Source: Anaerolineales bacterium (GTDB lineage Bacteria > Chloroflexota > Anaerolineae > Anaerolineales > Villigracilaceae). From it: 44,868 nt of DNA. The stretch lies in the NCBI GenBank assembly GCA_014860745.1, contig JACZJC010000034.1, positions 1-44,868 of the forward strand, given 5' to 3'. Positions 1-29,308 of the stretch are shown in pieces. The translations under genes and the position numbers were made by a program. The notes beneath the pieces are model-generated. The model had not been told where the DNA came from, made no database searches, and saw only the letters and a list, made by a program, of their open reading frames with translations. Numbering within the stretch: the first letter of the stretch is position 1; each line of letters begins with the position of its first letter.

Positions 1-1452
1 GATCTCCAGCAATTCTTCGAGCGTGGTGTAACGGTCAACCGAGAGGATGGCATACAACGCTTCCAACGCACGCGGGTAACCGCGTGTCTTTTCGCGGGCT
101 TTGTTCAGTAACGCATCAGGCGCGGACTTGAGTCCCACGCGCCCGTCCGCGTCCATTTCACGCAGGACGTTTTCCGCGTAAGGCGATTCGAGTCCTTCAT
201 CCAAACTCAGGTGATGTTGCCTGCCTGGCTCGCAAATCGCCAGGTCACGCGGCGCGATGCGCGTGGTGATGACCGCTTTCACGGCATGGTGCTGTCCGCC
301 GAGCAGGGCGTTCAGCGCGTCGCTCAATTCGCTGTCACGCAGGCTCAGGCTTTCGGGGTCGATCAGGGTTTCAAAGTTATCCAACAGCAGGATCATACGC
401 CCGCTGGGGAAGGCATCCAACAGCGCGCGCATTTTATCACCTGTGGACGTCTGCGGGTTTTTATAGATTCCCTCCAGCCGCTCGGCGGTCTCCTCCGAAG
501 GAGGCAGGAGTTTGCTCAAATCCGCGAAGACGTTCGCAAAGTTGACCCTATGACTGCCCATCTCGCTCAAATAGACGATCCCGTCGGTTTTCATCTCGCC
601 GAGGTCATCGGGAAGCTCGCCTCTTTCCAACGCCTTGAGCAGGCGGCAGACCATTGCAGTTTTTCCCACCCCCGCGCGTCCCACGATGGTCATCAAACGC
701 TGCGAGTCGTTATTGAGGAAGTCCGTGATTTGTTTTGTTTCGATCAACCGATCCTGAAAATAATTCGGCGCGATCCCTGGCGGCGGATTGATAAAGCGCG
801 TGGATGTTTTCCCCGCGACAGGTTTCTCAGGCTGACGCTCGCGCTCGAGTCCTGCTTCAATATTCTTTTGAGTTTGTTCTTGGGCGGCTTGGGGGTTATC
901 AACAATTTTTTGTTGAATTTGGATTTGTGATTTCAGTTCTTCAATTTCAGCCTTGATGCGATTCTCTTCATCACCTTTAGCTCGGCGCAAGGCTCGTTCC
1001 GCATCGGCCAGTCGGTCTTTGTATGATTGTAGAATGCCTTCGGGTGAATCCATCTCACGCAGGAATTTGCGAAGTTTTGCCAGACCATGTTCAAATTCCC
1101 CTGTGAAATCAATCCATTGGCGATTACCGAGTCCAAACGGTTGTTCCGCATCCTTGTGTAATCGAATGGGAATAACAACTTTTTTGTACTTTAACGCCCA
1201 AGTCCACTCGTTCTTGCACATCGAGCCTTGTGCAGTGCTGTCTTTTGTCATCACAAAAGCCATACACTTACAGGAACGAATCCCATCTACGATTTGATCG
1301 TCCCAATCACGGGCAGGATCAATATCTCGTTTGTCAAACCAAACGCCTGTGAACTTGTCCTCACCGCCTTCCAATTCGTCGGCAAGCTTGCGCGCAAATT
1401 CCAGCGCATCTGCGGTGGAATAACTGATGAAACAATGTTGTCCGTCGGTCAT
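1..1452 (-). CDS. TIR-STAND (NB-ARC-like) protein, 3' end cut by window edge
   Basis: The frame is open from an ATG at 1452 to base 1 (484 codons, no stop), so the protein continues beyond the window. An N-terminal TIR domain (about residues 5-130) starts with HCFISYS and has a Cys-Lys-Asn-Glu stretch at 79-82; Glu82 sits where TIR NADases keep their catalytic Glu. A charged, probably coiled-coil linker spans about 140-205. A STAND NTPase follows: Walker A GRAGVGKT at 258-265, Walker B MILLLDN at 353-359, the VITTR motif at 394-398 and a GYPRALEAL segment near 459. The C-terminal sensor (often TPR or WD repeats) is not visible. The RBS GAGGGATTT lies directly before the ATG. Prokaryotic NLR-like proteins of this build are linked to anti-phage abortive defence; here that role is inferred. 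NAD hydrolysis by the TIR is likely but not shown. Confidence 0.9.
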
Positions 1453-1499: not shown

Positions 1500-1530
1500 A
1501 TTATACCCACGATGTAAGAACAATTATCAA
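1500..1530 (-). promoter_or_regulatory. Probable sigma-70 promoter of the TIR-STAND gene
   Basis: Read on the minus strand, TTGATA (1530-1525) is followed after 19 bp by a perfect TATAAT (1505-1500), about 48 bp before the start codon. The spacer is longer than the usual 17 bp, so strength is uncertain. Confidence 0.45.
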
Positions 1531-1542
1531 ATCTTCTTCAAG

Positions 1543-1633
1543 AATCGTCAATCGTCAATCGTCAATCGTCAATCGTCAATCGTCAATCGTCAATCGTCAA
1601 TCGTCAATCGTCAATCGTCAATCGTCAATCGTC
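1543..1633. repeat. Perfect 7-bp tandem repeat, 13 copies of AATCGTC
   Basis: Thirteen uninterrupted units of AATCGTC fill 91 bp. On the minus strand the unit supplies the last two codons (GAC GAT) and the TGA stop of the nitroreductase gene; all other copies lie downstream of that stop. Copy-number change would therefore not alter the protein but would alter its 3' UTR and the spacing to the TIR-STAND promoter. Perfect identity suggests recent slippage expansion. Confidence 0.97.
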
Positions 1634-2146
1634 CTGCCACCTCTCCCAATGCACCACTTCATTCAAAGAAATCCGTCCGCCTTTCTTCGGCGGGGCGGAT
1701 AACTTCTCCTCGTCCAACGCATACCCAAACGAGAGCGCGATGCGCAAATGCCATTCGGGAGGGAATGCCAAAATCTGGCGCGTCCGCTCAAAGTCGTAAA
1801 GAGAAGCGGGGCACGAGCCCACTCCCAGCTCCCATGCGGCCAGCTGCATAAACGCCGCGGCCTGGCCTGCATCGAACATGATCTGAAATTTCTCGGTCGG
1901 GTCGGGAGTTAGAATCGCAACGCACAAGGCCGCGCCCGCGATATGCGAGGCCCATTGGCCGCAGGTCGAAAGTTCCTTTAGAATGGACTTGTCGCGAATC
2001 GCAATGAACCTCCACGCCTGATTGTTCTTCGAAGACTGCGACCTGCGCCCCGCATTGAGGATGGTCTTCGCAACATCATCAGAGATGGGGGTTTCCAAAA
2101 ACTTTCTCACCGCGCGCTTGGTACGGATTGCATCTGAAACTTTCAT
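1625..2146 (-). CDS. Nitroreductase family FMN-dependent oxidoreductase
   Basis: A 173-residue protein of the nitroreductase fold. The N-terminal part has the family's FMN-phosphate-binding pattern (RTKRAVRKF near residues 8-16, then GRRSQSSKNNQAWRF at about 33-47), a central helix region MFDAGQAAAFMQLAAWELG, and a C-terminal GYALDEE segment. Such enzymes use NAD(P)H to reduce nitro groups, quinones or flavins as homodimers in the cytoplasm; the physiological substrate cannot be told from sequence. The length is typical of the short subgroup. It is transcribed away from the membrane-protein gene at 2204. The final Asp-Asp and the stop codon are contributed by the downstream tandem repeat. Confidence 0.88.
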   Translation of the reverse strand: MKVSDAIRTKRAVRKFLETPISDDVAKTILNAGRRSQSSKNNQAWRFIAIRDKSILKELSTCGQWASHIAGAALCVAILTPDPTEKFQIMFDAGQAAAFMQLAAWELGVGSCPASLYDFERTRQILAFPPEWHLRIALSFGYALDEEKLSAPPKKGGRISLNEVVHWERWQDD

Positions 2147-26316: not shown

Positions 26317-27975
26317 ATGACGAGACGTGTTGAAAAGACCGTTTTCATCAGTTATCGCCGTACAAACTTGCCATGGGCGTTGGCTATTTTTCAAAACTTG
26401 AAAAACGAGGGGTACGATGTTTTCTTCGATTATCTTAGTATCCCCAGCGGAGATTTTGAAACCACGATAATTGAGAATATCAAGGCACGTTCTCATTTCG
26501 TTGTAATATTGACTCCTTCTGCATTGGAAAGATGCAACGAGACTGGGGATTGGTTAAGGCGTGAAATAGAAACCGCAATAGATGAAAAGCGGAATATTGT
26601 TCCGCTTATGCTGGAGAGCTTTGACTTTGGTGCTCCATCAACTGCCAAAGCATTAACTGGAAAACTCGATAAGCTAAAGAAATACAATGGTTTACGTGTA
26701 CATGCAGAATATTTTTTCGAGGGCATGAACAGGCTTCGAGAAAATTTCCTGAATGTAACGCTGGACGCTGTTGTTCACCCACTTTCTGAAATTGTTAAGC
26801 CTACCACCGAAGAGCAAAATGTTGCTGCAAGCGGTGTTAGTCCTGTTGAAAAAGACCATCTTGCTGCTCAAGAATTGTACGAACGTGGCAATGTGTTTTT
26901 AGACTTGGATAAATACGAAGAAGCAATTCGTTACTATAAAAAAGCTATTGATCTCAATCCGATATTTGCTGAAGCTTATGTTCATTGGGGCATAGCATTG
27001 AACGACTTGGGGCAATACGATGAAGCAGAGGCTTGTCATCGTAAATCTATAAACCTCAATTCATCACTGGCACCAGCATATTCCAATCTGGGGACTACAC
27101 TAAGAGAAATGAAGCGATACGAAGAAGCGGAATCTAATTATCGCAAGGCTATTGAACTTGATCCTTCACATCCTTATCCGTATACAAATTTAGCACTCAT
27201 GCTTCATGACAACCTAAAACGTTACGATGAAGCCGAGGTGATGTACAAAAAAGTGCTTGCATTAAAGCCAACCGCCTCGGACTCTTTTTACAATTGGGCT
27301 AGGTATCTCTACGATATCGGAAAATACAAAGAGGCGGAAATCAATTATCGTAAAGCGTTGGATCTCAATCCATCAGACACAGATATTTATAACAATCTAG
27401 GGGCTTTATTAAATGATAAATTAGAACTCTACAATCAAGCTGAAACTCTTTTCCGTAAAGCTATTGAAATCAAGCCGTCAAAAGCCACTGCGCACCACAA
27501 TTTAGGCATTTCGCTGATAAAACAAAGACGCCATGCCGAGGCTGAAGAGAGTTTTCGAAAAGCCATTGAAATCGATTCTTCTTATATTTCTGCTTACTTC
27601 AGTTTAGGCGATTTACTTGATAACCAAAAACGTTACAAAGAGGCTGAAGTTGCATATCGACAAGCAATAAAATTATATCCATTTGATGCTCACCTTTATT
27701 ACCACTTAGGTGTTTCATTAAGTAATCAGGAACACTACTATGAAGCAGAGGCTAGTTATCGAAGGGGTATTGAACTCGATCCATTAGATGCAACAGCCCA
27801 CTGCCACTTGGGAGATGTCTTGAGATTTCTAAAACGCTTTGACGAGGCTGAAAATTATTATCGTAAAGCCATCACGCTAGACTCTTCGCATGCACACTTT
27901 TACAGCAGGGTCTTCATCACACTAAACAGAATAAGCCGACTCTTGCGCGAAAAACTAGTAGATGATGCAGATTAG
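26317..27975 (+). CDS. TIR-TPR protein (candidate defence or signalling NADase)
   Basis: A 552-residue protein. Residues 7-150 form a TIR domain: VFISYRRTN (9-17), DVFFDYLSIPSGDF (34-47), and Glu83 in DWLRREIETA, four residues after a Trp, the position of the NADase glutamate. From about 180 to 540 there are ten tetratricopeptide repeats with the recurring AEA-x2-YRKAI-x-L pattern. TIR-TPR proteins are known in prokaryotes and some act in immunity, the TPRs presumably sensing or binding a partner; that role is inferred here. A TATAAT (26291-26296) and AAAGGAG precede the ATG. The gene is visibly more AT-rich than the ALDH gene upstream, consistent with acquisition. It stands alone as a transcription unit. 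Confidence 0.92.
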   Translation: MTRRVEKTVFISYRRTNLPWALAIFQNLKNEGYDVFFDYLSIPSGDFETTIIENIKARSHFVVILTPSALERCNETGDWLRREIETAIDEKRNIVPLMLESFDFGAPSTAKALTGKLDKLKKYNGLRVHAEYFFEGMNRLRENFLNVTLDAVVHPLSEIVKPTTEEQNVAASGVSPVEKDHLAAQELYERGNVFLDLDKYEEAIRYYKKAIDLNPIFAEAYVHWGIALNDLGQYDEAEACHRKSINLNSSLAPAYSNLGTTLREMKRYEEAESNYRKAIELDPSHPYPYTNLALMLHDNLKRYDEAEVMYKKVLALKPTASDSFYNWARYLYDIGKYKEAEINYRKALDLNPSDTDIYNNLGALLNDKLELYNQAETLFRKAIEIKPSKATAHHNLGISLIKQRRHAEAEESFRKAIEIDSSYISAYFSLGDLLDNQKRYKEAEVAYRQAIKLYPFDAHLYYHLGVSLSNQEHYYEAEASYRRGIELDPLDATAHCHLGDVLRFLKRFDEAENYYRKAITLDSSHAHFYSRVFITLNRISRLLREKLVDDAD

Positions 27976-28543: not shown

Positions 28544-29308
28544 TTATAGTTTTTCAAAAACTATTACTGCCAGTTTGCTCCAATCATGTGCGTAAAGTAT
28601 TAATCGATCTCTGTCCTTTTTGGAAACTGGATTGTTATGTGCAAGTATGTTTCTTGTCTTTTCAATTTCTTCAATCCAGACAGCTAGATGGTCAAATTTT
28701 CCTCCTAGAATTTGCCGAAACTCATTGCTATTACTATTTATGATTTTCTTGAGGTCTTCAATGTCAGTAAAGAAAATTGGGGCAGCTCCTCTACTCGAGT
28801 GCCAAGGGGCTTCCTTTTCTGCTAATTTCCTTGTTGTTACATTTGAATGGATTTTTGTGTTTACTTTTTCGACTCTATCACCCCACCAGTTTTCTTTAAA
28901 ATACTTTTTCATTACGGCAACAACAAAATTTCTCACAGAATTTTCAAATAGGTAGATTACAGGATAAATTTCAGCATTGCTGTTTGCTGCAGTGAAAATT
29001 AAATTATCAATAAACGGATCATCTGATGTAGGAAGGGGCTTTAGAGATTTTTTTCTGATGTTTAGTTTAGGAGCTGGGTTTGTTGATTTAGGCGGTGCGA
29101 ATTCATCTTGAACTGCTCTTCTCGTTATCTCGTCAATGATAGAAGATACATTGATGTCAAGCTTGTTCTTCTTAATATAATAACAAGCAGCCTGATCAGT
29201 GCTTGTGAGATCAAGCCGCTTTTTTATTCTGGATAAAGTAACTTGAAGACTTTCCCTCTTTACATCAGTCTTCTTATTCAGGATTTGACTGATTAGATCC
29301 CTTGGCAT
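28544..29308 (-). CDS. Swt1-type HEPN-domain protein, putative RNase effector
   Basis: A 254-residue protein. The C-terminal half (about 110-254) has the layout of Swt1-type HEPN domains: VIYLFENSVRNFVVAVM, then WWGDRVEK, and near the end the HEPN catalytic motif Arg219-x4-His224 in KTRNILAHNNP. The N-terminal 70 residues resemble a short helical region (TSTDQAACYYIKKNKLDI) often fused to such domains. HEPN domains with an intact R-x4-H are commonly RNases in defence and toxin systems; that activity is predicted, not shown. It is the last gene of a three-gene operon, overlapping the small HTH gene by 35 bp. AAAGGA precedes the ATG. Codon use and base composition are AT-rich compared with flanking genes. 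Confidence 0.82.
   Translation of the reverse strand: MPRDLISQILNKKTDVKRESLQVTLSRIKKRLDLTSTDQAACYYIKKNKLDINVSSIIDEITRRAVQDEFAPPKSTNPAPKLNIRKKSLKPLPTSDDPFIDNLIFTAANSNAEIYPVIYLFENSVRNFVVAVMKKYFKENWWGDRVEKVNTKIHSNVTTRKLAEKEAPWHSSRGAAPIFFTDIEDLKKIINSNSNEFRQILGGKFDHLAVWIEEIEKTRNILAHNNPVSKKDRDRLILYAHDWSKLAVIVFEKL

Follow-up and report, generated by a model that had tools for sequence, protein, structure and literature searches.

NLRs are quick to diversify in animals, plants and fungi, which raises the question of how their bacterial relatives change specificity. A case in point is a gene cut off at the edge of the analysed DNA, a stretch of 44,868 nucleotides from an Anaerolineales bacterium (the window). 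The genome has 4.32 Mb in 82 contigs, and the window corresponds to its contig C55, window base 1 being contig base 1. The sequence-only reading had described a TIR-STAND frame open to the edge, with Glu82 and a P-loop, and the frame (ATG at 1452, stop-free to base 1, 484 codons), a TIR_2 match and the Walker A motif are all confirmed (Table). The leftward extension that it called for is supplied by contig C33, whose last 141 bases (62250-62390) are 100% identical to window bases 1-141, the identity ending before base 142. On C33 the frame runs for 652 codons, of which 47 also lie in the window part, and carries the receptor onward to its stop with no frameshift. The joined receptor has 1,089 residues, comprises a TIR domain, a STAND ATPase and TPRs, and is single-copy in its genome. 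The C55-C33 join is supported because the overlap is exact, end-to-end and in the same orientation, because in some relatives a single contig carries the entire gene as an uninterrupted frame (L051, for example, matches over residues 1-1087 at 70% identity) and because relatives share the neighbouring genes. In 14 out of 20 relatives' loci a nitroreductase gene precedes the receptor or an acyl-CoA synthetase gene follows it; both are present in L051, L067, L068, L069 and also L150. Neither neighbour was found in the other six loci (L058, L059, L060, L061, L062 and L071), some of which have little flanking DNA. The window-side neighbours that could be identified are mostly housekeeping genes. 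Gene order shows the receptor locus to keep its chromosomal position in most relatives, as far as the flanking genes tell.

Table. Features of the receptor gene and its surroundings in window coordinates
Feature	Position	Strand	Basis or remark
Receptor gene, first 484 of 1,089 codons	1..1452	-	remainder on C33 (L003:12433-14391, minus strand)
Overlap with the end of C33	1..141		100% identity
Shared core block, window part (from residue about 254; on to about 565 on C33)	1..693	-	DNA nearly the same across 11 genomes from 4 genera, one of them covering only residues from 436 on
STAND-type P-loop NTPase domain, residues about 226-400	253..777	-	sub-threshold Pfam; CED-4, Apaf-1, MalT, RPP1
Walker A GRAGVGKT, residues 258-265	658-681	-	translation
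Helical linker, residues about 120-206	835..1095	-	model helices 120-135, 137-157, 161-185, 187-206
TIR domain, residues 8-127	1072..1431	-	Pfam TIR_2, E 2e-25; SPARTA TIR structural match
Glu82, residue in the catalytic position	1207-1209	-	translation; alignment rows
Promoter-like site TTGACG-17-GATAAT	1523..1551	-	first hexamer from the gene-proximal (last) VNTR unit
VNTR, 13.0 perfect 7-base copies of AATCGTC (GACGATT on the gene's strand)	1543..1633		upstream of the gene
Nitroreductase-family gene, upstream neighbour	1625..2146	-	likewise in 9 of 20 relatives' loci

The TIR domain aligns by sequence profile with the TLR2, AbTIR, SPARTA and SARM1 chains, and the C-K-x-E of TLR2 falls at the Glu82 site of the receptor. 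Glu occupies position 82 in all 26 alignment rows that cover the site (the other four of 30 being too short), and Walker A (GxxxxGK[ST]) is present in all 25 that cover it (the other five being too short). In the structural model of the window part (484 residues, 15 sequences, mean pLDDT 76.8), the SPARTA TIR scores highest of all chains compared as a match to the TIR domain (Z 17.4, rmsd 1.9 over 127 residues), and the coiled linker that had been proposed appears as four helices. The ATPase part of the model matches MalT, CED-4, ORC and Apaf-1, while its Pfam scores lie slightly below the gathering thresholds (AAA_16, 32.0 versus 32.6; NACHT, 24.0 versus 26.7; NB-ARC, 20.9 versus 23.5). Matches to the NACHT clade are weak: PF05729 reaches 24.0 bits against the curated 26.7, and an Avs4 chain E 0.13. 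Plant RPP1 (7dfv) aligns over residues 1-484 (Z 13.6, 334 residues) with an rmsd of 15.1, so that the domains are alike and their arrangement is not. The P-loop NTPase core had been called complete; the P-loop domain does lie within the window, but the segment after it runs on to C33. For that segment (residues 401-545) position and conservation fit a winged helix, at low pLDDT and without a Pfam hit of its own. The C-terminal repeats, which the earlier reading had left to be identified beyond the edge, are a TPR array on C33 (TPR_12, E 1.5e-33) resembling the TPR structures of LGN/Pins. The L051 relative was modelled at full length (12 sequences, mean pLDDT 68.4), with high confidence in the TPRs and poor confidence after the ATPase. 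The full-length fold matches PH0952 (6mfv; Foldseek, 786 columns, E 1.5e-10), an archaeal protein which, like the receptor, is a STAND ATPase with a TPR sensor and has a solved structure, but is without a TIR. PADLOC has no model that spans the whole protein and gives partial hits only, to the TIR, the P-loop and the TPRs. The NLR-like domain order (TIR, STAND ATPase, TPR repeats) proposed from the fragment holds for the joined 1,089-residue protein, for which we infer the roles 'NADase' and 'immune'. With an intact frame and a TPR array at the C-terminus, the extension did not bring the outcome that the earlier reading had named, on the sequence side, as a refutation.

Upstream of the gene, a perfect VNTR had been reported. 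The array is real, with 13 perfect copies, and is the sole place in the genome where three exact copies of the unit stand in tandem, but it is not conserved (0 of 17 relatives): GACGATT was not found in the 500 bases upstream of the gene in any of the 17 relatives checked. Other arrays occur upstream in L067 (11 bases, 7.4 copies) and, as short ones, in L054 and L061. On this comparison the VNTR is probably without a general role. A phase-variable promoter as a general feature was rejected, given that GACGATT is missing in all 17 relatives and that every VNTR unit contains a -35-like hexamer, so that a change in copy number would leave the promoter spacing unchanged. The reportedly clear -10 box turned out to be weak; the GATAAT site is near chance level, since 1 kb has three promoter-like sites and its shuffled versions average 0.8 (sd 1.0), which is not clearly above chance.

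Some match to the receptor exists in 36 of the 61 genomes around the source, mostly to TIR domains alone, and full or split receptor relatives are found in 11 of them including the source, all in one genus; the parts that match are 54-100% identical. When 84,980 species, with one genome each, were searched by pattern, 17 loci in 15 genomes were returned, by title all from Chloroflexi or Anaerolineae members save one bacterium. When the core DNA was searched against 152 genomes of the family, 28 matched, some over 26-50 bases only; core matches of at least 140 bases at 90% DNA identity or more are spread over four genera (g1, g28, g36 and g45). Among 400 genomes drawn from the phylum 12 match, and the four with long matches all come from the family of the source. 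Carriage of the receptor by viruses or plasmids was considered and rejected on scans that find close relatives only: they returned no receptor relative among viral contigs with P0001, a single short TIR-only match among them with the alignment, and none among plasmids at 1e-20.

The relatives do not resemble the window gene evenly along its length. Nine of them are 83-98% DNA-identical to it over residues 251-550 (50-residue windows), with the exception of one L048 bin at a contig end (73%), whereas in the same nine the TIR parts are 56-91% identical and the region past residue 550 is mostly 39-75%, with better-conserved patches. The class-A ten are the window gene, L048, L050, L051, L052, L053, L054/L063, L055, L057/L064 and L060; half-genes on two contigs were merged into one row (L054+L063, L057+L064 and, in some comparisons, L060+L157). 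An eleventh core-sharing genome, L156, covers only residues from 436 on. L061 was left out of class A, having residues 1-187 only and a TsaD match that is merely 50% identical, and L048 is not comparable past residue 480, near its contig end. There (L048 7437-7710), homology ends at residue 480 and a different sequence follows. Synonymous differences, given as uncorrected NG86 proportions (pS), sharpen the picture. Among the ten genomes, pS is 0.09-0.26 in all 45 pairs for the core (residues 262-545) and 0.08-0.26 in all 28 pairs for a second block (974-1017), compared with 0.57-0.81 in all 28 pairs for the TPRs (606-968), 0.57 being the lowest value of any pair among the rows that cover the TPR. 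The TIR (1-150) has a median pS of 0.71 over 36 pairs; values below 0.35 are seen in one trio only, L052, L053 and L057 (0.27-0.30). In the same ten genomes, the host gene tsaD has pS 0.43-0.75 in all 45 pairs, and the direct neighbours behave like it (nitroreductase, 0.52-0.75 in 15 of 15 pairs; acyl-CoA synthetase, 0.49-0.71 in 10 of 10). Low pS in the core against high pS in tsaD, neighbours and ends implies that the core is young and its surroundings are old. At the DNA level, these comparisons show the ATPase core and a short post-TPR block to be near-identical across species, while the TPR sensor and nearly all TIR ends have diverged as far as the hosts have.

A two-state segmentation places the edges mostly near residues 254/565 and 972/1020, the left edge varying by pair. 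Residues about 673-936 are the most divergent long stretch in class A, in class B and in L067/L150 alike, and are preceded by a better-conserved stretch at about 625-648. Linkage of cores at pS <0.35 yields three groups (eleven rows, i.e. the ten and L156; L056/L068/L069/L151; and L067/L150), all others being single. The second block groups differently: L067, L071, L150 and L154 join L056, L068 and L151, and L152 joins the first group. Since these groups are unlike those of the core, the blocks reassort. For L069 and L070 only the first frames were used, and second-block values from them (e.g. 0.74 for L068/L069) are not trusted; in both records the C-terminal end of the receptor lies in a second frame (L069 7809-8242; L070 8058-8546), owing to a frameshift or a sequencing error. 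TIR types also cross core types, the window's TIR type being found in L048, L049, L054, L061 and L067. Furthermore, the core tree puts the ten on one side of a branch (92/95, not starred), and holding the ten together is rejected for the TIR (lnL 131 lower in nine rows; AU p 4.2e-6) and, moderately and on a tree with long branches, for TsaD (lnL 47 lower in ten rows; AU p 0.012). Across the 152 family genomes, the best other DNA match to the TPR region is 78% over 554 bases, and 85% over 219 at its start; no donor being found, exchange of the TPR is read from the replacement and not from a sighting of donor and recipient.

Replacement is most direct in a pair of close relatives, L067, from the one-contig 4.13 Mb genome G021, and L150, on a 1.96 Mb contig of G182. 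Their flanks are 94.9% (upstream 2.3 kb) and 94.2% (downstream 3.2 kb) identical. Within the gene, the core (197-568, 96%), a 36-codon stretch (612-648, 96%) and a block at 949-1059 (94%) are conserved, and residues 1-197 (TIR and linker, 64%), 568-612 (43%) and 648-949 (52%) are divergent. The pS values agree: 0.09 for nitroreductase, 0.21 for acyl-CoA synthetase (285 codons), 0.14 for the core and 0.12 for the second block, against 0.77 for the TIR and 0.66 for the TPRs. As read from these alignments, L067 and L150, though closely related, differ by the in-place replacement of two modules within a single gene. A similar trend is displayed by L068 and L069, the latter with its frame split near the end: flanks are 91-96% identical, the core 95%, the linker 69%, the post-core region 56% and the TIR proper 91%.

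Taken together, we consider it likely, as a joint proposition, that the gene encodes a bacterial TIR-NLR-type receptor, a relative of plant and animal NLR immune receptors, and that in this one receptor locus the TIR and TPR ends have been replaced in place around a shared core. Its parts, in order, are the TIR effector, the helical linker, the STAND ATPase and the segment behind it, the TPR sensor and a conserved short tail at the C-terminus. By analogy with the families of its domains, most probably the TPR superhelix would bind an invader-derived or stress-derived ligand, the ATPase would exchange nucleotide and then assemble, and the clustered TIR domains would cleave NAD+ and stop the cell. 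Replacement would most probably proceed by homologous recombination, with the conserved blocks on either side of the TPR array and next to the TIR part as anchors; selection would favour rare sensors and effectors, and repeated exchange would homogenise the anchors too. In-frame inserts are tolerated at the two joints, one behind the core and one behind the second block; they are palindromes in several genomes and of REP type in one. Replacement of sensor and effector with the motor retained fits a conflict with a changing opponent, which is an argument and not a test. A more far-reaching version, that the locus is an exchange platform in which an interchangeable ATPase chassis common to a family and conserved DNA anchors serve repeated interspecies swaps of effectors and sensors, with REP-type palindromes at the joints participating, we put forward only tentatively and regard as rather doubtful; if true, it would give bacteria a combinatorial receptor diversity distinct from DGRs and from whole-system transfer.

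Among the alternatives, it is unlikely that the protein is a STAND signalling regulator, such as MalT or AfsR, and not a defence receptor. MalT is among the best structural matches of the NTPase part and AfsR among the weak hits of the TPRs, yet the Pfam hits of the receptor, over both contig parts, include no DNA-binding domain, the effector is a TIR with a conserved Glu, and the speed at which sensor and effector are replaced is more in keeping with conflict than with regulation, again by argument and not by test. We give very little credence to one recent horizontal sweep of the whole gene, after which the ends diverged by mutation (e.g. through a DGR) and the core was held by selection. 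The class-A cores are about equidistant (pS 0.09-0.26), as they would be after one spread, and DGRs are reported to diversify STAND sensors in other bacteria (PMC10907252). However, the TIRs of the window gene and L048 hardly differ as proteins (about 99% identity, pN 0.003) but have a pS of 0.54-0.58, against 0.19 in the core, so that they are old and not hypermutated; the TPR alleles differ by indels and by near-saturated synonymous sites; and the flanking genes did not sweep. Moreover, no RT was found beside the gene in any of the three genomes searched, the RVT_1 matches being on another contig (G000, the window's genome) or more than 0.8 Mb away (G021 and G182). Equally improbable is an artefact, namely that metagenome assembly or binning joined wrong ends at the shared stretch, or that the core is contamination. 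Contig ends do fall inside the core in 6 of 11 class-A genes (the window gene, L050, L054/L063, L057/L064, L060/L157 and L156), and the nine class-A relatives are all MAGs, five of them named NC_groundwater. Such breaks would be expected wherever one sample contains several genomes with almost the same stretch of DNA. Against an artefact, the isolate names of the remaining four class-A records are different, and their cores resemble one another without being identical. Intact class-A genes with expected neighbours on both flanks exist (L051, and L055 with SelA and acyl-CoA synthetase), and the L067/L150 replacement is seen on long contigs, one a genome in a single piece and the other 1.96 Mb. 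Least credible of all, constraint on the DNA or RNA itself (an overlapping gene or RNA element) could be what keeps synonymous change low in these two blocks, the core and the second one, as an opposite-strand frame of 239 codons (window 211-930, plus strand) overlaps part of the core and the second block is short and sharply bounded, but the conserved block extends past that frame, and ten non-class-A rows have pS 0.55-0.76 (NTPase part) and 0.56-0.77 (segment after) against the window, near-saturated values between groups at core sites that speak against a universal constraint.

Joint 1 (about 570-605, right after the core) and joint 2 (about 1020-1048, after the second block) carry in-frame inserts that differ between genomes; judged by eye, many of them are palindromes or simple repeats. 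The joint-2 insert of G021 contains both arms of a GTAG-ended palindrome family that is dispersed in many copies, as in GTAG-type REPs. The half-site pattern has 36 matches in G021, two of them inside the receptor gene, against none for the reversed control, seven in G036 and none in G000. GTAG-tagged REPs have been reported in Chloroflexi as GTAG-ended, genome-dispersed palindromes, sometimes inside genes (PMC3733652); here, by comparison, they stand in frame at a module joint of the receptor in one genome (G021), and other genomes have other inserts there. For joint-1 inserts of the ACCACGAAGGACACGAAGG sort the counts give no evidence of a high-copy family, the pattern occurring only seven times in four of six genomes (three of the seven in the receptor) and not at all in two. 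In 7 of 16 genes (L051, L053, L067, L049, L068, L071 and L063), the three 72-base windows with the most structure include a joint; in the other nine, including the window's own (ranks 37 and 52 of 533), the joints are not among the top three. We favour the view that the joint palindromes land where the protein tolerates them over the view that they promote exchange.

Displaced C-terminal ends are a feature of Rhs and CdiA, whose orphan 3' pieces follow the gene in the same orientation. Of 18 receptor loci, 6 have orphan tails of the receptor, and none was seen at the remaining 12. In nine chosen genomes, there are 21 tail matches, nine in the gene and 12 as orphans (seven genomes), and 11 of the 12 orphans lie on the contig and strand of the gene, at most 3 kb downstream, the remaining one being on another contig. 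They are placed as in Rhs/CdiA, but they match only the last about 50 codons of the receptor gene. The second block is found once per locus, inside the gene (in two pieces in L069), and the orphans of L051 and L052 recur at about 230-264 bases along with neighbouring DNA. The interpretation of the orphans as displaced sensors was rejected on these grounds. The orphan tails are better explained as tail duplications at joint 2, which suggests repeated local recombination there. Copies are located at L052 9042-9980, L063 2146-5000 and L071 2400-4800, with at most three per locus, those of L052 between palindromic repeats; a tail-like frame of 148 codons is found in G101 on a contig other than that of the receptor gene (L158 4612-5055, minus strand). 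Directly downstream of the receptor gene on C33, an IS200-type (Y1) transposase gene is present (L003 11799-12389, minus strand), and the repeat DNA between the two genes resembles, by eye, that between the L052 orphan tails. A search of the other 24 locus records, several of which are short or duplicates, gave no homologue of the Y1_Tnp gene at E 1e-8. As for REPtron features, Y1_Tnp adjoins the receptor in G000, where the GTAG pattern has no match. A RAYT as the cause of replacement was rejected, since the transposase is found beside the window's gene only and is not needed.

As a protein, the receptor is a further bacterial TIR-STAND-TPR receptor, of a kind already known. Avs and bNACHT antiphage STAND proteins unite effector, STAND ATPase and C-terminal sensor in one chain; the receptor's chain is alike, its NACHT and Avs4 matches being the weak ones given above. 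TIR domains fused to AP-ATPases have been described (PMC7159879). Such bacterial TIR-fused AP-ATPase/STAND proteins and the plant TNL RPP1 share with the receptor the order of TIR, NB-ARC/NACHT-like ATPase and repeats, whereas the receptor has TPRs instead of LRRs and both of its ends are replaced around a shared core. The TIR fold is likewise that of SPARTA, in which E77A served as the catalytic TIR mutant (PMC10474274), but no Argonaute or APAZ part was found in the receptor. PMC13142454 treats eukaryotic TIR proteins. Putative bacterial NLR-type STAND sensors of multicellular bacteria are reported to be diversified at a high rate, with domain shuffling too (PMC10907252); mutagenic retrohoming of lectin domains and intragenomic duplication are at work there, whereas here TIR and TPR modules are replaced and no RT was found at the locus. 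In the titles and abstract openings consulted, a partial coverage of the literature on bacterial NLR/STAND/TIR genes, defence-gene recombination and Anaerolineae, module replacement in a bacterial NLR is not described. The locus offers natural experiments in which near-identical motors carry different sensors and TIRs, in one case between flanks that are 94-95% identical. Assemblies tend to break in such shared cores, so that these genes look like contig-edge fragments, as here.

Past the 3' end of the receptor gene and convergent with it, a SLATT-domain protein is encoded (L003 10484-11014, plus strand; NCBIfam SLATT_1, E 3e-15), and a homologue also lies near the receptor gene in L063 (5396-5902). 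A 101-codon frame near the receptor in the window's genome (L003 11283-11588, plus strand) is 96% identical to one in G035 (L071 3320-3619, plus strand), where it also lies near the receptor gene; it has no NCBIfam hit. In the window itself, a second TIR protein is encoded at 26317-27975 (plus strand), with TIR_2 (E 5e-16) ahead of an extended TPR array and no ATPase hit between them, and near it 28544-29308 (minus strand) matches the PADLOC candidate defence family PDC-M34B (E 2.1e-34). Four distant TIR matches, 30-33% identical over the TIR part, are present elsewhere in G000, at C8:179522, C8:78814, C39:15433 and C39:104400.
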